A model generated the notes under the pieces. That model ran no database searches and had not been told where the DNA came from. It saw nothing but the letters and a program-made list of their open reading frames with translations. Below, piece by piece: positions 6,206 through 59,997 of a stretch of 64,000 nucleotides of DNA. Numbering within the stretch: the stretch's first letter is position 1; each line of letters starts with the position of its first letter. Location of the stretch: the NCBI RefSeq assembly GCF_013407935.1, contig NZ_JACBZU010000001.1:558001-622000 (forward strand). The letters run 5' to 3'. The position numbers and the translations under genes are program-made. This stretch comes from Allomuricauda sp. ARW1Y1. GTDB taxonomy: Bacteria > Bacteroidota > Bacteroidia > Flavobacteriales > Flavobacteriaceae.

Positions 6206-6958
6206 ATGCTAGAAATAAAAAATTTACACGCAAGCGTAGAGGACAAGGAAATCCTTAAGGGAATAGACCTGAAAGTAAATGCGGGAGAGGTGCACGCCAT
6301 TATGGGCCCCAACGGCTCTGGGAAAAGCACCTTGGCCGAAGTAATTGCAGGTCAAGAAGAGTTTGAGGTGGGCGAAGGAACCATTCTCTTGGAAGGAGAA
6401 GATTTGGGAGAACTTTCACCAGAGGAAAGAGCGCACAAAGGAGTGTTCCTTTCCTTCCAATATCCAGTTGAAATCCCAGGGGTATCGGTGACCAACTTCA
6501 TGAAGACCGCTATCAACGAATCCAGAAAAGCACAAGGCTTGGAAGATATGCCGGCCAACGAAATGCTGAAAAAGATTCGTGAAAAGTCCGAAATGTTGGA
6601 AATCGACAGGAAATTTCTTTCCCGTTCCTTGAACGAAGGCTTCTCTGGAGGTGAAAAGAAGCGTAACGAGATTTTCCAAATGGCGATGATGGAACCCAAA
6701 TTGGCCATTTTGGACGAAACTGATTCCGGACTTGACATTGATGCCCTTCGTATCGTGGCGAACGGGGTAAACAAATTGCGCAGCAAGGATAACGCCATTA
6801 TCGTAATTACCCACTACCAACGTTTGCTGGAATACATCGTGCCGGATTTTGTACATGTATTGCACAATGGAAAAATAGTGAAATCCGGAACCAAGGAATT
6901 GGCGTTGGAGTTGGAAGAGAAAGGTTACGATTGGCTGAAAGAGGATGCTGTAGTTTAG
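6206..6958 (+). CDS. sufC: Fe-S cluster assembly ATPase SufC
   Basis: 250 aa ABC-type ATPase that partners SufB and SufD. Walker A is GPNGSGKST (about residue 34), the ABC signature region is SGGEKKRNEIFQMAM, and Walker B is LAILDETDSGLDID. ITHYQRLLEYIVPDFVHVLH holds the H-loop histidine and the SufC-type C-terminus. ATP binding drives the conformational change that exposes the cluster-assembly site at the SufB-SufD interface. sufD normally follows directly; here about 480 bases carrying another gene separate them. Confidence 0.97.
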   Translation: MLEIKNLHASVEDKEILKGIDLKVNAGEVHAIMGPNGSGKSTLAEVIAGQEEFEVGEGTILLEGEDLGELSPEERAHKGVFLSFQYPVEIPGVSVTNFMKTAINESRKAQGLEDMPANEMLKKIREKSEMLEIDRKFLSRSLNEGFSGGEKKRNEIFQMAMMEPKLAILDETDSGLDIDALRIVANGVNKLRSKDNAIIVITHYQRLLEYIVPDFVHVLHNGKIVKSGTKELALELEEKGYDWLKEDAVV

Positions 6959-6961
6959 GAG

Positions 6962-6982
6962 TTTCACGTTTAATGTTGTTCC
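6962..6982 (-). repeat. Left heptad flank of the four-helix-bundle unit
   Basis: Three in-phase heptads resembling TTTCAGG, the complement of the right-hand CCTGAAA array. It lies immediately 5' of the small gene and replaces an ordinary leader. Confidence 0.45.
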
Positions 6983-6988
6983 TAATCA

Positions 6989-7396
6989 ATGGCTACCATA
7001 AAGAGATTTGAAGATTTAGAAATCTGGCAGGAAGCCAGAAAGCTATGCCAAGATATCATCCGTATCGCAAATGATACAGAATTAAAGAATCATTTTAGAC
7101 TGAGGGATCAGATAAAGGCGTCATCGGGTTCTGTAATGGACAATATCACTGAGGGCTTTGAGAGGGATGGCAACTTGGAATTCAGACAATTTCTTTCTAT
7201 TGCAAAAGGTTCTGCCGGTGAAGCAAGATCACAATTGTACCGAGTTTTTGATAATAATTATATCACCATTGATGAACTGCAAAAACTGACTTCGGAATAC
7301 GAAATCCTAAGTCGGAAAATTGCAAACTTCATCAACTATTTGAATAAAAAGGATTTTAAAGGAGTAAAGTTTAAGGAGAATCAGCTTGAAACCTGA
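6989..7396 (+). CDS. Four helix bundle protein (S23/Avd-like family)
   Basis: 135 aa, entirely alpha-helical by composition. It starts MATIKRFEDLEIWQEARKL and contains LRDQIKASSGSVMDNITEGF, RQFLSIAKGSAGEARSQLYR and a last helix of YEILSRKIANFINYL. FEDLxxWQxAxxL and the SVxxNIxEGF stretch are hallmarks of the family first seen as proteins of 23S rRNA intervening sequences, which also includes the accessory protein of diversity-generating retroelements. Molecular function is unsettled; some members bind nucleic acid. No link to Fe-S chemistry is visible. The last codons (LET-stop) are made of heptad repeat sequence, so the array reaches into the gene. Confidence 0.88.
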   Translation: MATIKRFEDLEIWQEARKLCQDIIRIANDTELKNHFRLRDQIKASSGSVMDNITEGFERDGNLEFRQFLSIAKGSAGEARSQLYRVFDNNYITIDELQKLTSEYEILSRKIANFINYLNKKDFKGVKFKENQLET

Positions 7397-7433
7397 AACC
7401 TGAAACCTGAAATCCTTAACCTGAAACATTAAA
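7385..7433 (+). repeat. Heptanucleotide array CCTGAAA at the 3' end of the four-helix gene
   Basis: Seven consecutive in-phase 7-base units, four of them exactly CCTGAAA. The stop codon of the upstream gene (7394-7396) lies in the second unit and the sufD start follows four bases after the last. Confidence 0.8.
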
Positions 7434-7436
7434 AAA

Positions 7437-8753
7437 ATGGATTTAAAGGAAAAATTAGTCTCCTCTTTTTTTGCTTTTGAGGACGGAATGGATTTAGATC
7501 ATCCAGTTCACGAAGAACGTTCCCATGCCATCAAAAATTTTGAGACCAAGGGCTTTCCCACCAAAAAGGAGGAAGCTTGGAAATACACCTCGTTGAAAGG
7601 ATTGCAGAAAGTGGATTTCAGCATCTTTCCAAAACACGAGACCTCGTTGGAGTACAAGGATGTCAAAAAATATTTCCTGCACGAGATTGACACCTATAAA
7701 ATCGTATTTGTGGATGGGGTGTACAGCTCTTACCTATCAGAAACAACGCATGACGGGGTGGATGTCTGTTTGATGAGTTCGGCATTCAGCAAGCCGATGT
7801 ATCAACCCATCATTGAAGTATATTTCAATAAAGCGGCCTCCAAGGATGAGTCGTTGACCTCCTTGAACACTGCCTTTTGTAAGGAAGGGGCATACATTTA
7901 TATCCCCAAGAACAAAATGCCCAAAAAGCCCATCCAAATTCTACATTTGGCTACGGGCAAAGAGCCAGCCTTGATGTTGCAACCGCGTAATTTGATCGTG
8001 GCAGAGGACAACGCTGAGGTCCAGATTATTGAAAGGCACCAAAGTTTAACGGGAAATGAGGTGTTCACCAACTCCGTGACCGAAATTTTTGCCGGAAAAG
8101 ATGCCATCATCGATTATTACAAGGTACAGAATGACGAGCCCACCGCTTCATTGGTGGACAATACCTATATTTCGCAAAAGGACAGTAGCGTAGTGCGGGT
8201 GCATACCTTCTCTTTGGGAGGTAAATTGATCCGCAACAACCTGAACTTTTATCAGAATGGCGAGCGGATAGACTCTACTTTGAAAGGGGTCACCATTTTG
8301 GGCGACAAACAGCATGTGGACCATCACACCTTGGTGCACCATGCACAGCCTAATTGTGAGAGCCACCAAGATTACAAAGGGATTTTCGGGGACAGTTCTA
8401 CAGGGGTGTTCAATGGAAAAATCATTGTGGACAAGATTGCCCAAAAAACGGATGCCTTTCAGCAGAACAACAATATTTTGTTGAGCGATAAGTCGACCAT
8501 CAACTCCAAACCACAATTGGAGATTTTTGCGGACGACGTAAAATGTTCCCATGGATGCACCATTGGCCAGTTGGATGAAGAAGCATTGTTTTACCTACGG
8601 TCAAGGGGAATACCCAAAAAAGAGGCCAAGGCCCTATTGATGTACGCTTTTGCCAACAACGTATTGGAAAGTGTACGAATTCCCGAACTAAAGGCGCGAA
8701 TCAATAAGATTATCGCCGATAAATTGGGAGTGCGTATGGGATTTGACCTGTAA
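7437..8753 (+). CDS. sufD: Fe-S cluster assembly protein SufD
   Basis: 438 aa. Paralogue of SufB and third component of the SufBC2D scaffold, needed for iron acquisition. The N-terminus (FPTKKEEAWKYTSLKGLQKV) is typical of SufD. The C-terminal core shows SHQDYKGIFGDSSTGVFNGKI, QQNNNILLSDKSTINSKPQLE and CSHGCTIGQLDEEALFYLRS, with the conserved His and Cys at the SufB interface. The ATG at 7437 is preceded by an A-rich run that is the end of the heptad array, so its ribosome binding site has been supplied or rebuilt by that repeat. Confidence 0.96.
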   Translation: MDLKEKLVSSFFAFEDGMDLDHPVHEERSHAIKNFETKGFPTKKEEAWKYTSLKGLQKVDFSIFPKHETSLEYKDVKKYFLHEIDTYKIVFVDGVYSSYLSETTHDGVDVCLMSSAFSKPMYQPIIEVYFNKAASKDESLTSLNTAFCKEGAYIYIPKNKMPKKPIQILHLATGKEPALMLQPRNLIVAEDNAEVQIIERHQSLTGNEVFTNSVTEIFAGKDAIIDYYKVQNDEPTASLVDNTYISQKDSSVVRVHTFSLGGKLIRNNLNFYQNGERIDSTLKGVTILGDKQHVDHHTLVHHAQPNCESHQDYKGIFGDSSTGVFNGKIIVDKIAQKTDAFQQNNNILLSDKSTINSKPQLEIFADDVKCSHGCTIGQLDEEALFYLRSRGIPKKEAKALLMYAFANNVLESVRIPELKARINKIIADKLGVRMGFDL

Positions 8754-11904: not shown

Positions 11905-11912
11905 TTAGGGAG

Positions 11913-11989
11913 TCCGAAGTTGAGAGTTGCGTGTTTCGTTTTGCGAGTTAGGAACCAAGAACCAGGAAACAAGACCCAAGAGAGAAAAG
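11913..11989 (+). repeat. Heptanucleotide array after repeat A copy 1
   Basis: Eleven in-phase 7-base units. They start as TCCGAAG and TTGAGAG types and change to CCAAGAA and CCAGGAA types without losing phase. Confidence 0.8.
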
Positions 11990-12038
11990 ACCACAGAAAA
12001 TAGACTTGGTTTGGTGGGCAGACGTTCAGTGGATGGTT

Positions 12039-12103
12039 GACACTAATTTCACGAATTAACACCAATAGGGTTCTTTGTCATTTCGAACGAATGTGAGAAA
12101 TCT
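12039..12103 (+). repeat. Dispersed repeat module C, copy 1
   Basis: GACACTAATTTCACGAATTA... to GTGAGAAATCT. A second, diverged copy starts at 12139 and a third lies at 59464-59528. Confidence 0.75.
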
Positions 12104-12176
12104 ATTGGAAATCGGAAGTCAGGCAGCAGTGGGCAGTAGACACAAATTACACGAATTGGCACGAATAGGGTTCTTT

Positions 12177-12252
12177 GTCATTTCGAGCTGTCACCCTGAG
12201 CGTTGGTCATTGAACGAAGTCGAAATGAGTCGAAGGGGCAGTCGAGAAATCT
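12177..12252 (+). repeat. Dispersed repeat family A, copy 2
   Basis: Same length and order as copy 1, with a few substitutions (CACCCTGAGCG for CACCCCGAGCG). It directly follows a module C copy. Confidence 0.85.
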
Positions 12253-12298
12253 ATCGGGAGTCGGAAGTCAGGTAGTAGTTAGTCTTGTAAGATAGTTT

Positions 12299-12359
12299 GT
12301 CAGTTCGAGTGTTTTTGACGGTTTTTGCAAAAAAACGAGGCAAAAATGTATCGAGAACT
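12299..12359 (+). repeat. Dispersed repeat family B, copy 1
   Basis: Starts GTCAGTTCGAGTGTTTTT and ends GTATCGAGAACT. AGTTCGA and TCGAGAACT are complementary ends, and the middle GGTTTTTGCAAAAAAAC is itself self-complementary. Other copies lie at 12531, 38652 and 59305. Confidence 0.8.
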
Positions 12360-12440
12360 TAGTTCAGTGAGCAGCCAAGAGGCAGGAATTAAGAATCAGG
12401 AGAGGAAAGACGATAGAAAATAGACTTGGTTTGATGGGAA

Positions 12441-12531
12441 GTAGACGGTTTGCAGTCGGGAGTTAGGAGTTTAGAGTTGCGAGTTACGGGTAAAGAGTCG
12501 GTTGGCAGTTTGCAGTAGGCAGTTGAACTTG
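12441..12531 (+). repeat. Heptanucleotide array, 13 units, before repeat B copy 2
   Basis: 91 bases that divide into 13 in-phase units (for example GTTAGGA, GTTGCGA), ending at the first base of family B copy 2. Confidence 0.8.
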
Positions 12532-12592
12532 TCAGTTCGAGTGTTTTTTGGCGGTTTTTGTAAAAAAAGAGGCAAAAAATGTATCGAGAACT
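12531..12592 (+). repeat. Dispersed repeat family B, copy 2
   Basis: GTCAGTTCGAGTGTTTTTTG to ATCGAGAACT, the same layout as copy 1. Confidence 0.8.
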
Positions 12593-12717
12593 AGTTCAGT
12601 GAGCAGCCAAGAAACAGGAGACAAGAATCAAGACCCAAGAGGGCAGTTTTTTGAACTTGAACTTGAGTTTTTCAATCAGATTGCTCAATCGTCACTTCGT
12701 GCCTCATGTCGAAATGA

Positions 12718-12779: not shown

Positions 12780-13976
12780 CTAGAGCCTGACCCTTTTTTC
12801 ATAGATCGTAAGGAACTGGTTTAAAATGATGCCCCAGTTCCTGATGGGCATGGACCATTTCTTGGTGGCCTCCCTTGTTGCCAAATATACGGATTTCATC
12901 ACCGCATCGTCGGTGGGGAAGGAAAGCTTGTTCTTGGTGTACTTCCTGATCTTCCCGTTCAGGTTCTCTATAAGGTTGGTGGTATAGATGATCTTTCGTA
13001 TCTCGAGGGGGAACTCATAGAACACGGTGAGTTCGTCCCAGTTTTCCCTCCAGCTCCTTATGGCATAGGAGTACTTGCCCTCCCATTTTTGGGCGAAGTC
13101 CTCCAGGGCGGCCTTTGCGGCCTTTTCGTTGGGCGCGTTGTAGATGCCCTTCATGTCGGCGGTGAACGCTTTTTTGTCCTTCCATACCACGTAGCGACAG
13201 GCATTGCGTATCTGGTGCACCACGCATATCTGGGTTCTGGACTCGGGGAAGACGTTCCTGATGGTATCGGTGAACCCGTTCAGGTTGTCGGTGGCGGTGA
13301 TCAGGATGTCCTCGGTGCCACGGGCCTTGATATCGGTAAGCACCGACATCCAGAAGGCCGCCGATTCGTTCTTGCCCAGCCAAAGGCCGAGCACTTCCTT
13401 TTTCCCGTCCCTGCGCAGGCCCACGGCCACGTACACGGTCTTGTTGATCACCTTGGAGGATTCCCTGACCTTGAAGACGATCCCGTCCATCCATACGATA
13501 AGATAGACCGGCTCCAAGGGTCGGTTCTGCCAGGCTACAATGTCCTCCGCCACCTTTTCGGTTATCCTTGATATGGTCGATGTGGATACCTCAAAACCAT
13601 AGGCCTCATGTATCTGTTCCTCTATATCACTTACCGACATCCCCTTGGCATATAGCGATACGATGACATTTTCGATGCCGTCCACCATGTTGCCCCGCTT
13701 GGGGACGACCATGGGGTTGAAACTGGCATCCCTGTCCCTTGGGACGGATATCTCGGACTCCCCGAAGGAGGTACGCACCTTCTTTTTGGAGTGCCCGTTA
13801 CGGGAGTTGCCGTCCTTGGACCTCTGGTGCCTTTCGTAATCCAGATGGCCGTCCAGTTCCCCCTCCAGCATCTTCTCGATACCGCGTTTCTGGAGTTCCT
13901 TGAGAAAACCGTTGAGCTCGTCTCCCGATTTGAACTGCTTCAGGAAATCGTCGTTGAACAATTCTTCTTTCTTCAT
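12780..13976 (-). CDS. IS256 family transposase
   Basis: 398 aa from the ATG at 13976 ([15 protein letters not shown]), full length for the family. It carries out cut-out/paste-in transposition with a DDE active site. The first Asp is in [14 protein letters not shown], the second in [15 protein letters not shown], and the Glu in [18 protein letters not shown]. The Mutator-type signature [19 protein letters not shown] is present. No frameshift or stop. A weak hairpin (GGGTCAGGCT...AGCCCAACCC) spans its stop codon and may end its transcript. I rejected a nine-residue N-terminal extension. Confidence 0.96.
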
Positions 13977-14003
13977 AATGTGCAAATATTTAAAATTAGA
14001 CAA

Positions 14004-14070: not shown

Positions 14071-14164
14071 AACCTATGTGTTGAACTTGACACTTGAGTT
14101 TAAGTTTTCCGGTTACTTCGCCAACATCAGTTTGGTAAGAATTCCCTAAAAGCACTTTTTTAAC

Positions 14165-14220
14165 CTAAACCCTAAACCCTAAACCCTAAACCCTAAACCC
14201 TAAACCCTAAACCCCAAACC
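14165..14220 (+). repeat. Telomere-like heptamer array (CTAAACC)n
   Basis: Seven perfect tandem CTAAACC units followed by one CCAAACC. The unit equals the plant-type telomere heptamer, but here it sits in an intergenic gap of a bacterial chromosome, 76 bases before a gene. Confidence 0.95.
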
Positions 14221-14295
14221 CATTTGTTTGTGAAGAAATAGCGGTTGCGAAGTGACATTTCTTATTTTTACGGTCTAAACAGTAAACTCCATACT

Positions 14296-15474: not shown

Positions 15475-16695
15475 CTACCCCTCACTATATTCATCCAGAT
15501 GCTCTGGATACAAAAAGTTGTTGTAAGGGAAACGGGTCACATGGATGTTCCTCACCGCGTCGTACACCCGATTGCGGAATTCGTCCATGTTTTCCTTGTT
15601 CAAAGCGGAGATAAAAAGTGCCTTATCGCCCATCTTGTTGAACCAGGTTTTTTTCCAATCCTCCAAGGTAAAGTGGGCCGTGTTTTTTTCCGTGACCAAG
15701 TCATCTTCATCGATGGTTTCGGGCTGGTACTGGTCAATCTTATTGAACACCATAATGCAAGGCTTGTCCGAACTATCGATTTCGTCCAAAATTTGGTTGA
15801 CGGATGCGATGTGCTCTTCAAAATTGGGATGGGATATATCTACAACGTGCAATAAAAGGTCGGCCTCTCGAACTTCGTCCAAGGTACTTTTAAAACTCTC
15901 CACCAACTGGGTGGGCAGTTTTCGGATGAAACCAACGGTGTCGCTCAACAAAAAAGGGAGGTTGCCCAAAACCACTTTTCGAACGGTGGTGTCCAAGGTT
16001 GCAAAGAGTTTGTTCTCGGCAAATACATCACTTTTGCTGATTACGTTCATTAAGGTAGATTTACCCACATTGGTGTATCCTACCAAAGCTACACGAACCA
16101 AAGAACCCCGGTTGCCCCGTTGGGTTTCCATTTGTCGGTCGATTTTGGCCAATTTCTTTTTGAGAAGGGCAATGCGATCGCGGACAATACGTCTATCCGT
16201 TTCGATTTCCGTTTCACCCGGTCCGCGCATTCCGATACCACCCCTTTGTCGTTCCAAGTGCGTCCAAAGCCCGGTTAGTCGAGGTAAAAGATATTCGTAC
16301 TGCGCCAATTCCACTTGGGTGCGGGCGTAACTCGTCTGTGCGCGCTGGGCAAAAATATCCAAGATAAGGCTAGTTCGGTCCAGCACCTTACAGCGGAGCA
16401 GTTTTTCAATATTGTTTTGCTGGGCAGGGGAGAGTTCATCATCAAAAATAACGGAACCGATTTCGTGTTCCTTCACATATTGACGCACCTCTTCCATTTT
16501 ACCACTACCGATATAGGTTTTCGGGTTGGGTACATCGATGCGCTGCACAAATCGTTTCGCCACTTCGCCACCGGCCGTGTAGGTCAAAAACTCCAACTCA
16601 TCCAAGTATTCCTTTACCTTGTCTTCATCCTGATGTTGGTTCAAAACACCGATCAATACCGCCTTTTCATATTCTATGGACTTCTTTTCTAGCAT
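15475..16695 (-). CDS. hflX: GTPase HflX
   Basis: 406 aa. Ribosome-associated GTPase that splits stalled or hibernating 70S ribosomes under stress. The N-terminal domain shows the glycine-rich RGGIGMRGPGETEIETDRR. The G domain has G1 GYTNVGKSTLMN, G3 DTVGFIRKLPTQLVESFKST and G4 FNKID. The start is the ATG at 16695 (MLEKKSIEYEK); a TTG one codon earlier is less likely. Convergent with the DUF3078 gene and its bidirectional terminator. Confidence 0.96.
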   Translation of the reverse strand: MLEKKSIEYEKAVLIGVLNQHQDEDKVKEYLDELEFLTYTAGGEVAKRFVQRIDVPNPKTYIGSGKMEEVRQYVKEHEIGSVIFDDELSPAQQNNIEKLLRCKVLDRTSLILDIFAQRAQTSYARTQVELAQYEYLLPRLTGLWTHLERQRGGIGMRGPGETEIETDRRIVRDRIALLKKKLAKIDRQMETQRGNRGSLVRVALVGYTNVGKSTLMNVISKSDVFAENKLFATLDTTVRKVVLGNLPFLLSDTVGFIRKLPTQLVESFKSTLDEVREADLLLHVVDISHPNFEEHIASVNQILDEIDSSDKPCIMVFNKIDQYQPETIDEDDLVTEKNTAHFTLEDWKKTWFNKMGDKALFISALNKENMDEFRNRVYDAVRNIHVTRFPYNNFLYPEHLDEYSEG

Positions 16696-16856
16696 CAAAT
16701 GGATTTAGGATACAAATTTACACAATGTTTGGCAGCTATTTTTGTGGTTGGCTATTGTAATCTTGGAGAGCTTATGTTTCAGCAAACTGAGGTAGGAATA
16801 AAGCTACACAACGTAAAAGTGAATTTTCACAACACAAATCGGTAAATCACTATGTA

Positions 16857-56992: not shown

Positions 56993-57718
56993 ATGAAAAC
57001 ATTAAAATTAGTATGTATGGCCATGTTGTGCATGGCAGTAAGTTTAGTTTCCTGTTCGGGGGAAGACGGTGAAACAGGGCCACAAGGACCCGCAGGGGCG
57101 GCTGGCGTAGCAGGTACAGATGGAGCGGATGGAGCCGATGGTATCAGCTGTTGGGATTTGAACGGTAATGGTGTAGGTGATGCCGAAGAGGACGTGAACA
57201 ACGATGGTAATTTTGATGCCATGGATTGCCAGGGTGCAGATGGTGTTGATGGTGCAGATGGTGCAGATGGTGTTGATGGAGCAGATGGAGCAGATGGTGT
57301 TGACGGTAATGCGAATGTTCAGCAGTTGGTATTTGATATTTCTGATGAAGCAAATTATAGTTCGCTTGACTTTGATTTAACTACTTTACCGAATCCAGTA
57401 ACAAATTATGCTTTTTTGTATTATATACAGCAGCCTAATGGATTAAGGTACTCTATACCAGGTGGCTTGAATGGAAATCAATTTTACACAAGGGTACTTT
57501 TAAATACAAATTCAGGAAGTGCATTTATCAACTTTCATAATGCATCAACTGATGCAGTAGCAGTTGTTCCCCAAGGATTATATTCACAAGTTATAATTGT
57601 TGCCATAGAACTAACCAATACAGGTAAAAACAGCGAAAACATCATGGCCGAGCTAAAAGCTGCCGGTGTGGACACCAGCGATTACAACCAAGTAGCTGCG
57701 TATTTTGGTCTAGAGTAA
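56993..57718 (+). CDS. Collagen-like lipoprotein with EF-hand-like insert
   Basis: 241 aa. The lipoprotein signal MKTLKLVCMAMLCMAVSLVS is followed by the lipobox cysteine (VSCSGEDG). Collagen-type Gly-x-y repeats run from about residue 24 (GETGPQGPAGAAGVAGTDGA), interrupted by CWDLNGNGVGDAEEDVNNDG which has the spaced Asp/Asn pattern of a calcium-binding loop. They resume as perfect GADGVDGADG units to about residue 105. The C-terminal part (about 106-241) is a beta-rich globular domain I do not recognise. Surface exposure is likely. Confidence 0.85.
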   Translation: MKTLKLVCMAMLCMAVSLVSCSGEDGETGPQGPAGAAGVAGTDGADGADGISCWDLNGNGVGDAEEDVNNDGNFDAMDCQGADGVDGADGADGVDGADGADGVDGNANVQQLVFDISDEANYSSLDFDLTTLPNPVTNYAFLYYIQQPNGLRYSIPGGLNGNQFYTRVLLNTNSGSAFINFHNASTDAVAVVPQGLYSQVIIVAIELTNTGKNSENIMAELKAAGVDTSDYNQVAAYFGLE

Positions 57719-57780: not shown

Positions 57781-57878
57781 TTTTGAGTTAGTAGTCCGAA
57801 GCTCGAAGTTATGGGTTAAGAGTTATGAGTTACGAGTTCCGTGTTACGGGTTGGTAGTCAGGAGTTATGAGTTAAGAT
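57781..57878 (+). repeat. Heptanucleotide array of 14 in-phase units (TTNNGAG)
   Basis: The 98 bases divide exactly into 14 heptads such as TTATGAG, TTACGAG and TTAAGAG. Every unit differs slightly, but the T at position 1 and G at position 7 hold in almost all. It begins straight after the terminator and ends at the first base of a family A repeat. Confidence 0.92.
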
Positions 57879-58139: not shown

Positions 58140-59213
58140 ATGAATCCCGAAAACTATATCAAAGGAAGAGGCGCACAGCAGAATACCGATAACCGGTTTT
58201 TGCAGCACTCTTTTGAACTTCGGGATGATTTTTTGGAATTCTGTCGGTTGGAGGGAGAAGAAGCGGAAAGCAACAAAACGACCTATATCCCCATTTTTCC
58301 CAAAACCATTGTCAACAAGGTGGAGAGTCCCGATGTGGGCATGCAGTATTCCATGAATCCCTATCAAGGCTGTGAACATGGGTGCGTGTACTGTTACGCT
58401 AGAAATACGCACGAGTATTGGGGCTATAGTGCTGGGTTGGATTTTGAACGGAAGATTTTGATTAAAAAATCGGCCCCGGAACTTTTGGAGGCCAAGATCA
58501 AACATAAAAATTGGAAGGCACAGACCATCGTACTTTCAGGCAATACGGATTGCTACCAACCAGCGGAACGGGAATACGAAATCACCCGAAAATGTTTGGA
58601 GGTGTTTTTAAAATATCGGCATCCCGTGGGCATCATTACCAAAAACGCCCTTGTTTTAAGGGATTTGGATGTGTTGAAAGAATTGAATCAGTATGGTTTG
58701 GTCGGGGTATATATTTCGGTCACTTCGCTGTCCGAAATAACAAGGCGTTTGCTCGAGCCACGAACGGCTTCCATCCAAAAGCGACTCAAAACCATCCAAA
58801 CGCTATCCGAAAATGGCATCCCAGTAAACGCAATGTTGGCACCCATGATTCCTGGAATCAATTCGCATGAACTATTGCCATTGGCCAAGGCGGTGGCTGA
58901 TCATGGCGCACGTTCGTTTGGACTCACGGTGGTTCGGCTTAATGGGACGATTGGGCAATTGTTTTCGGATTGGCTCAGAAAAGCAATGCCAGACAGGGCG
59001 GAAAAGGTACTGCACCAAATACAGGATTGCCACGGAGGAACGGTAAATGATTCCAGATTCGGAACCCGAACAAGGGGAGAGGGCAAAATTGCGGAGCAAA
59101 TCCATCACATGGCACAGCTTGCTAAGAAAAAATATTTTCGGGATAAAAGCTTTCCTACCCTGAACACAGAACTTCATGAACAGTACAAAGATGGGCAGCT
59201 AAAGTTATTTTGA
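58140..59213 (+). CDS. PA0069-family radical SAM protein
   Basis: 357 aa. The 4Fe-4S cluster motif is CEHGCVYCYARN (Cx3Cx2C), in the sentence MNPYQGCEHGCVYCYARNTH. IVLSGNTDCYQPAEREYEIT and VGIITKNALVLRDLDVLKEL continue the TIM barrel. The family resembles spore photoproduct lyase but its reaction is unknown. The first 60 residues (KGRGAQQNTDNRF) match the PA0069 group rather than a lyase. The gene stands alone between two repeat islands, with a heptad array starting at the base after its stop codon. Confidence 0.9.
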   Translation: MNPENYIKGRGAQQNTDNRFLQHSFELRDDFLEFCRLEGEEAESNKTTYIPIFPKTIVNKVESPDVGMQYSMNPYQGCEHGCVYCYARNTHEYWGYSAGLDFERKILIKKSAPELLEAKIKHKNWKAQTIVLSGNTDCYQPAEREYEITRKCLEVFLKYRHPVGIITKNALVLRDLDVLKELNQYGLVGVYISVTSLSEITRRLLEPRTASIQKRLKTIQTLSENGIPVNAMLAPMIPGINSHELLPLAKAVADHGARSFGLTVVRLNGTIGQLFSDWLRKAMPDRAEKVLHQIQDCHGGTVNDSRFGTRTRGEGKIAEQIHHMAQLAKKKYFRDKSFPTLNTELHEQYKDGQLKLF

Positions 59214-59304
59214 GTTTTGGTTAGCAGTTGGAAGTCCGAAGTCAGGAGTCCGAAGTTGGGAGTTACGAGTTATGGGTTTCGGGTTTCGTGTTGCGAGTTA
59301 GGAT
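59214..59304 (+). repeat. Heptanucleotide array of 13 in-phase units
   Basis: 91 bases = 13 heptads (TTGGAAG, TCCGAAG, TTACGAG, TTTCGGG and others), starting directly after the stop codon at 59213 and ending at the first base of repeat B. Confidence 0.92.
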
Positions 59305-59365
59305 GTCAGTTCGAGTGTTTTTTGGCGGTTTTTGAAAAAAAGAGGCAAAAAATGTATCGAGAACC
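59305..59365 (+). repeat. Dispersed repeat family B, copy 4
   Basis: GTCAGTTCGAGTGTTTTTTG to ATCGAGAACC, 61 bases, nearly identical to the copy at 12531. Confidence 0.85.
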
Positions 59366-59997
59366 TGGTTTAGTGAGGAGCCAAGAGCCAGGAATCAAGA
59401 CTCGGGAGCGAAAAAACCATGGAAAATAGACTTGGTTTGATGGGAAATAGTCAATAAGCAGTTGACACTAATGTCACGAATTAGCACCAATAGGATTCTT
59501 TGTCATTTCGAAACGAAGTGAGAAATCTATCCAGAGTCGGAAGACGGAATTTGGGAGTTTCGTGTTTCGTGTTTCGTATTGCGAGTTGCGAGTTGTGAGT
59601 GGGCAGTGGCCTCTTTGCAGTCGAGCCATCAAAAAATGGCCATACCGATTCGGCTTGCGGAAAATCCTCCAAAACTCATCTTTAACCCGTAACCCTAAAC
59701 CTTGAACTTGAAATTTCTACTTGACCTTTGAGTTTGAACTATGCATTTGAATTTGAGTTTTCCCTTGGATTTCTCCATCGCTGCTTCACATCTTATGTCG
59801 AAATGACCTTTTTTGAATTTGGACTTGCCTTTTGAGTTTGAACTTGAAATCTGAACTTGAGTTTTTCTGTTGGATTTCTCAATCGATGCTTCGCATCTCA
59901 TGTCGAAATGACTTCAAATATCCTTCTCTACCTGAGGCATTGACAACAAAAAATGGTCCGAAACGGACCATTTTATATATCAATTTTCTTAGTTTAC
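59366..59997. other. Repeat island 2 (right part)
   Basis: Follows the same module order as island 1: heptads of the CCAAGAG type (59374-59415), AAAATAGACTTGGTTTGATG (from about 59420), module C (59464-59528), more heptads (GTTTCGT types), the word AACCCGTAACCCTAAACC, then TTGAACTTG-type words and two copies of a TCTTATGTCGAAATGACC element. The last 60 bases hold the hairpin TGGTCCG/CGGACCA near 59953 (likely terminator for the minus-strand gene). No gene. Confidence 0.75.
59464..59528 (+). repeat. Dispersed repeat module C, copy 3
   Basis: GACACTAATGTCACGAATTA... to GTGAGAAATCT, as at 12039. Confidence 0.75.

Follow-up and report, generated by a model that had tools for sequence, protein, structure and literature searches.

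The S23 gene lying between sufC and sufD in the window (the whole 64,000-nt stretch of DNA analysed) is bracketed by arrays of 7-nt units in opposite orientation. We consider that this arrangement is probably a small operon-riding element, composed of one S23 gene with inverted heptad ends, located between two host genes and oriented with them. Across the S23 family we observed the same architecture, an element-specific match between the two ends, a C-T core in the units, co-orientation with the host, the use of many junctions, and sites in occupied, empty, remnant and gene-less states. That the same design recurs around S23 genes in many bacteria suggests that a class of tiny genetic elements living in operons has been overlooked. 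A sequence-only reading of the same DNA had proposed such an element at the suf locus; as a whole, its interpretation is partly supported.

An S23 gene between inverted heptad arms in the suf operon

The suf locus is organised as follows.
6206..6958, + strand: sufC, upstream host operon gene (PF00005, 91.7 bits; named through suf gene order)
6959..6982, + strand: left arm, made of the heptads TTTCACG, TTTAATG and TTGTTCC and complementary to the right arm (from sequence)
6989..7396, + strand: S23/PF05635 four-helix-bundle gene, 135 aa (profile, AlphaFold, Foldseek)
7385..7433, + strand: right arm, CTTGAAA, CCTGAAA three times, TCCTTAA, CCTGAAA, CATTAAA (from sequence and TRF)
7437..8753, + strand: sufD, downstream host operon gene (PF01458, 297 bits)

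The upstream ABC ATPase is taken to be SufC from the suf gene order. The names trpC, trpD, tpiA, sufA, sufB, sufE, sufS, sufT, acyl-CoA dehydrogenase and GIY-YIG are likewise presumptive and in part given by eye.

That a complete S23 gene sits between sufC and sufD, as had been read from the sequence, was borne out by a PF05635 match of 107.5 bits (cut-off 33.8) and by Pfam matches on both neighbours. The protein also matched TIGR02436 (102 bits, cut-off 24), and PF05635 was the sole Pfam match within the element. AlphaFold, run with a 46-sequence alignment, confidently predicted a four-helix bundle (pLDDT 91.9). The best Foldseek matches of this model were the S23 proteins 2gsc and 2rld, entries with five chains each, followed by a weaker match to DGR Avd 4dwl (probability 1.00, TMq 0.70, 12% identity, E 0.04).

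The left units, TTTCACG (6962-6968), TTTAATG (6969-6975) and TTGTTCC (6976-6982), follow the sufC stop codon (6956-6958). The right arm runs through CTTGAAA (7385-7391), three CCTGAAA units (7392-7398, 7399-7405 and 7406-7412), TCCTTAA (7413-7419), CCTGAAA (7420-7426) and CATTAAA (7427-7433), with a TRF score of 59. Both series are those claimed earlier, CCTGAAA occurring four times and TCCTTAA preceding the last of them. The coordinates also agree with the claim that the right array holds the S23 stop codon (TGA, 7394-7396, within the second unit) and supplies the A-run ahead of the sufD ATG (7437), to which it extends. The S23 gene, sufC and sufD are all on one strand, S23 being sense to the host transcript, and in a predicted RNA fold the left GUUUCA pairs with the right UGAAAC, closing the element. 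Judged from its sequence, the suf copy taken alone would beat chance only modestly, its left-right match of 13.5 being equalled by about 2% of non-orthologous pairings; the strength of the case comes from the family.

The genome from which the window derives (G000) has four S23 genes, each with a different repeat type: AGTCCGA at trpD-trpC, CCTGAAA at suf, a TTTCTAT-like unit at an acyl-CoA dehydrogenase-like gene and CACCAAA before tpiA (host names by eye). PF05635 was detected in 29 of 39 genomes, this one counted, and is absent from the other 10; it was present in 15 of 16 additional congeners and in 232 of 296 genomes sampled across Bacteroidota. The loci from these genome searches are best-scoring matches, among which decayed S23 copies are under-represented.

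The two arms match inversely, element by element

Shuffled sequences, pairings with wrong partners, distance bins and a 400-kb stretch of the own genome served as controls. For 91 S23 genes of the own genome and its relatives, same-site orthologues counted and copies therefore not all independent, the left arm matched the reverse complement of its own right arm with a mean score of 15.05, against 9.02 for non-orthologous partners and 9.77 in a same-strand control. This value was never reached in 2000 permutations (maximum permuted mean 10.16), and the own partner ranked within the best 5% for 67 of the 91 genes. The idea that left and right are built of one kind of unit in opposite orientations thus holds, element by element, against wrong partners. 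Arms also co-vary at orthologous sites, where own-species pairings scored 15.20 and pairings with the arms of other species 13.63 (71 better, 42 worse, 2 tied; p 4e-4). By RNA duplex energy, 74 of 166 Bacteroidota genes had their own partner among the best 5%.

Identity at lag 7 was 0.395 in left and 0.440 in right arms, compared with about 0.30 in shuffles (z 18.8 and 26, respectively); lags 7 and 14 were prominent and lag 8 showed a smaller excess. Enrichment of heptads beside other S23 copies, on which the sequence-only reading had staked itself beforehand, was found in the distance bins: around 167 Bacteroidota genes, same-site orthologues again included, period-7 arrays lie less than 150 nt from S23 on the left in 60/166 and on the right in 81/165, and at 150-700 nt in only 11/164 and 3/164. 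Within the same 150 nt, period 14 (twice 7) gave 32 left and 51 right arrays, period 8 was minor (22 and 18), and the remaining periods within 4-15 gave 0-8 arrays. When right-arm units were aligned in register (90 of 167 Bacteroidota arms, only those with a clear 35-nt periodic stretch being usable), a C-T core appeared, with C at 0.81 and T at 0.67 and a score of 0.324, the maximum over 30 position permutations being 0.268.

In the window, 162 lag-matched positions were counted for period 7, none for periods 4-6, 8 and 10-12, and 50 for period 9, the last taken to be due to a nine-base repeat at 57233. Intergenic period-7 arrays number 11 in the window, and a 400-kb part of the own chromosome has 3; since these 3 fall within the range for other periods (0-7), heptads are no general trait of this genome.

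Neutral short tandem repeats, arising in non-coding gaps of any kind when the polymerase slips, would fit the varying array length (L111 at sufC-sufD; L284) and the over-representation of heptamers described for many bacterial genomes in the accessible part of PMC4692102. We regard this as highly improbable: arrays are nearly absent from the 400 kb of the own genome and concentrated beside S23, their arms match inversely and they have a common core. On these four grounds an origin by slippage only was rejected.

The period call was unclear in 50 of 166 Bacteroidota S23 copies, and period length showed no significant association with protein clade (136/2000 permutations). Heptad type and protein at different sites were weakly associated, above permutations (rho 0.21, 0/500), a value to which lineage composition may contribute.

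Separately, a hairpin with an ACCTC/ACCCC-like loop was seen upstream of some S23 starts (L021-L023, L027, L036, L039, L040, L042, L044, L167, L176, L198 and others). The motif occurs in 36 of 167 leaders, versus about 11 in shuffles, with a perfect stem of at least 4 in 17 leaders; we take the loop to resemble an anti-Shine-Dalgarno loop.

S23 genes occupy many operon junctions, in sense and patchily

Orientation was assessed for 161 of the 167 Bacteroidota genes, those with less than 700 nt of flank on a side being dropped. The S23 gene had the same orientation as both neighbours in 108 copies and the opposite in one (L149), i.e. 108 of the 109 copies having both neighbours called; in the other 52, at least one side gave no call. 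Flanks were usable for 165 copies, which group into 63 site clusters, two of them with 16 copies each. Five S23-occupied junctions are found in suf operons of this order: sufA-like/sufB (4 copies), sufB/sufC (1), sufC/sufD (3 and that of G039), sufT-like/ORF11145 (8) and 10867-type ORF/ORF11145 (2).

Site states were assigned by eye at three junctions. At sufC-sufD, S23 is present in 4 of 30 congeners (the own genome, the conspecific G039, G005 and G049). The remaining sites comprise three gaps of only 7-10 nt, six inverted-repeat elements of the GTCATTCC...GGAATGAC type and 17 heptad hairpins that lack a gene and measure 58-121 nt. With 4 of 30 sites occupied and near-empty gaps at others, S23 is no fixed resident of this junction, as the sequence-only reading required of its element. 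At the tpiA site (30 loci), S23 is present in 2, gene-less remnants with at least one CACCAAA-like unit in 5, a 36-nt scar in G039 and plain gaps of 10-34 nt in 22. At trpD-trpC (30 loci), S23 is present in 4, the gap is 0 in 5, and other insertions or spacers occupy 21. The suf, tpiA and trpD-trpC sites, together with co-orientation, uphold the view that the element is placed between operon genes without breaking them.

The own genome and G039 are conspecific, the flanks of their tpiA sites being 97.5-98.4% identical, and the S23 gene at this site is therefore polymorphic within a species. A tail common to G039 and the filled alleles suggests loss in G039. No near-identical S23 proteins (>80% identity) were seen at different sites among 90 genes compared, and no target-site duplication could be defined when empty and filled junctions were compared by eye. 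Occupied, remnant and empty sites suggest that the S23 element may be mobile; any movement would be slow or rare in the sample examined.

Two further observations concern these junctions. In the fragmented genome G045, tpiA is matched twice (contigs C107 and C346), and an S23 element precedes the C107 copy. In the trpD-trpC gap of L314 (G052) and L340 (G006), GTCATTCC...-type inverted-repeat elements enclose a small ORF, presumably GIY-YIG-like from a motif seen by eye; this design of a small ORF within an inverted repeat is like that of S23 elements, at the same operon junction.

S23 could instead be a resident, non-selfish regulator which tunes the host operon through the heptads around its own cistron, by multivalent RNA binding such as that of TRAP. 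The repeated occupation of one junction in many genomes (the two clusters of 16), right arms that often end near the next start codon, and the common C-T core are in line with this. So is the proposal that heptamers upstream of starts in Beggiatoaceae are regulator sites, made in the part of PMC4679880 available. Occupation is nevertheless patchy (4/30 at sufC-sufD, 2/30 at tpiA, 4/30 at trpD-trpC), the host operons are functionally unrelated and the family is absent in 10 of 39 genomes, and we therefore consider a resident regulator unlikely.

Matched heptad arms also occur outside Bacteroidota

Heptad arms are visible in S23 loci of several Bacteroidota families. A scan of named genome contigs gave 443 confirmed candidates, of which the best 80 (L202-L281) constitute a mixed set. 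By title, 27 of these are Bacteroidota-type loci, Balneolales counted, and were excluded from the figures for other phyla. These figures concern 52 usable genes among the best 80 of 443 candidates, from Acidobacteria, Patescibacteria, Chloroflexi, Kiritimatiellota, Planctomycetota, a cyanobacterium and others, many of the loci being Acidobacteria seemingly at one junction.

For these 52 genes out of the best 80 of 443, own arms scored 18.22 and permuted arms 8.96, with none of 2000 permutations reaching the own value. The own partner was in the best 5% for 31 of the 52, and the left-right z was at least 3 in 40 and below 3 in 12; copies without a left-right match among the best 80 of 443 include L208, L215, L227 and L276. 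The period was 7 in 38 of the 52 genes, 10 in 3, 9 in 2 and 6 in 1, with none in 8, and period-8 copies among the best 80 of 443 were exclusively Bacteroidota. Core alignment, for which 38/79 arms were usable in the mixed set and 33/52 outside Bacteroidota, gave for the latter (again from the best 80 of 443) C at 0.91 and T at 0.72, with a score of 0.521 and a permuted maximum of 0.379 in 30 permutations.

By eye, the Acidobacteria loci L203, L204, L206, L207, L211, L213, L217, L220, L245 and L271 share a similar downstream stretch, TAACTTGTT... or close, then CATTCGTGCTAG or close; one junction seems to be occupied in many of them.

RNA or DNA as the level of action

If pairing of the arms were under selection in the transcript, the sense strand should show more G-U than A-C mismatches. 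No excess of G-U over A-C was found in matched sense-strand arms of Bacteroidota (103 vs 166, ratio 0.62; wrong partners 0.83) or of the mixed set from the best 80 of 443 candidates (56 vs 78, ratio 0.72; wrong partners 1.01), and looser alignments gave 404 vs 534 and 235 vs 215. Selection for an RNA stem is consequently not supported, and selection through wobble pairs, unsupported in two tests, is retained only as one possible level of action. In the gene-less hairpin at suf, 1 of 13 pairs is doubly changed, which is weak for compensatory change. In the mixed set (best 80 of 443), the own partner was in the best 5% by RNA duplex energy for 43 of 78. The A-C surplus would fit right arms that retain C while left arms drift, i.e. 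recognition of the sequence itself.

The heptads may alternatively be transposon-like ends of a DNA element, bound as duplex by S23 and served by a nuclease or transposase acting in trans; only sense insertions would keep S23 expressed, hence the co-orientation. Inverted and element-specific ends, sense G-U pairs that are not in excess, presence and absence inside one species, the five suf junctions and gene-less hairpins resembling non-autonomous copies are all compatible with this. Yet PF05635 is alone in the element, with no transposase, target duplication was not definable by eye at the junctions, the ends vary among elements of one genome, which is unusual for a single trans-acting enzyme, and as many as 108 of 109 resolved copies are co-oriented. 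We hold a DNA element of this kind to be possible, if somewhat doubtful.

Heptad arrays without S23 in the window

Several arrays in the window stand apart from S23.
11908..12646, + strand: three left-polarity heptad arrays lacking S23, with other repeats interspersed among them
14152..14231, + strand: (CCCTAAA)n array, right polarity, upstream of a + gene (TRF score 109)
57791..57877, + strand: heptad array lacking S23, located downstream of a + gene and with left-arm polarity
59208..59719, + strand: heptad islands without S23, left polarity at 59208-59311, 59372-59407 and 59534-59618, right polarity at 59675-59719

The sequence-only reading had connected these islands with the S23 arms through their periodicity. 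They do have the same period and core; that they derive from S23 elements is no more than a suggestion, prompted by the remnants at tpiA. By eye, window arrays without S23 have a constant polarity with respect to the closest gene, the left-arm type following stop codons and the right-arm type preceding start codons.

Other features were seen nearby. A 105-bp imperfect tandem duplication (59712-59912) adjoins the heptad islands; a Mutator-family transposase (PF00872) and a second ORF of equal length (407 aa) lie on the minus strand at 12780-14003 and 15475-16698, near heptad islands; and a dispersed repeat containing GAGCTGTCACCC(C/T)GAGCGTTGGT occurs near heptad arrays at about 11829, 12177 and 57890. 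The nine-base repeat (GGTGCAGAT) is inside an ORF, at 57233-57307, and is probably a collagen-like coding repeat.

A model for the proposed operon-riding element

For the small operon-riding element that we prefer, we propose that S23, a pentamer in solved relatives, would bind the tandem units of its own ends, on the transcript or on DNA, perhaps with one heptad unit per subunit. Binding of tandem units by the S23 ring would explain why the period and the C-T core persist although the other positions of the unit change. The heptad ends may delimit the unit that is kept or moved, gene loss would leave solo heptad arrays behind, and the 23S rRNA intervening sequences (IVS) that encode S23 could be instances of this element that have entered an rRNA gene.

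More broadly, and as a tentative proposal falling short of probable, S23 genes of bacteria generally may be carried by a single, widespread class of elements that inhabit operons and rRNA. The ends of such elements would form a tandem code read by protein, its units being 7 nt (in some cases 8-10 nt) long, built around a C-T core and each read by one subunit of the S23 ring. The rRNA IVS, and probably many orphan bacterial heptamer arrays, would then count as special cases and fossils of this class.

S23/IVP is a common family whose function is not known, and the inverted heptad ends give it a testable candidate ligand. The tie between S23 and heptads also makes operon junctions the natural setting of the family, connects it in evolution with rRNA intervening sequences, and would offer an origin for separately reported bacterial heptamer arrays.

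Comparison with known systems

MITE/REP-type intergenic hairpins are short inverted-repeat inserts between genes. S23 elements are similar in this respect, with ends that are element-specific tandem heptads and a full form that carries S23. Terminal inverted repeats are shared with DNA transposons and insertion sequences, whereas the suf element has no transposase of its own.

The DGR protein Avd (4dwl, 8ub7) has a fold similar to that of the suf S23 protein. Avd works beside a reverse transcriptase and a template repeat; the immediate neighbours of the suf S23 gene, in contrast, are suf genes, and no DGR layout was found at this locus. PF05635 has been likened to Avd in the available passages of PMC10053308.

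Genes annotated 23S_rRNA_IVP are described inside cas loci, e.g. between cmr3 and cmr2, in the available part of PMC3936711, and are named in a figure legend of PMC10910872. Like the suf S23 gene they are placed between operon genes; however, they are read as CRISPR-Cas-associated, and the accessible text of PMC3936711 does not mention flanking repeats.

Heptamers have also been reported on their own. According to the passages available of PMC4679880, TAACTGA direct repeats occur as intergenic heptamers in Beggiatoaceae, Cyanobacteria and five Bacteroidetes. They resemble S23 arms in being intergenic, near start codons, and in containing ACT as many right arms do, but are one particular heptamer, and those passages do not mention S23, four helix or intervening. 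The GGGAATC heptamers of Xanthomonas are likewise intergenic, two genomes having 70 and 75 of them as convergent inverted pairs; they differ in being treated as G-quadruplex repeats, with no mention of S23 or four helix in the accessible part of PMC4692102.

No account of operon-borne S23 genes with inverted heptad ends was found in the literature examined, which consisted of titles, abstract starts and passages, subscription papers lying mostly outside reach. Within it, only a Coxiella rRNA study (PMC4990558, available in part) had already reported heptamers beside S23. In that study, the 23S rRNA IVS contains an S23 ORF, a stem formed by complementary ends and tandem GACAGAT heptamers just upstream of the S23 start; an RNase III site lies at the first heptamer repeat, the number of heptamers varies between strains, and the function and origin of rRNA intervening sequences are called unclear.

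Copies with few or no heptads were considered as rRNA IVS, and this was rejected, no rRNA being found in 7 loci, the window copy among them. The suf element lies between sufC and sufD and not inside a 23S rRNA gene, and Rfam at gathering threshold returned nothing in its locus (L002). It shares with 23S rRNA IVS an S23 ORF sense to the host transcript and complementary borders; IVS lie within rRNA helices and are excised by RNase III, whereas the host of the suf element is a protein-coding operon. Since it is outside any rRNA gene, the suf element is not filed as a 23S rRNA IVS, and by analogy may be likened to S23-coding IVS in its build.
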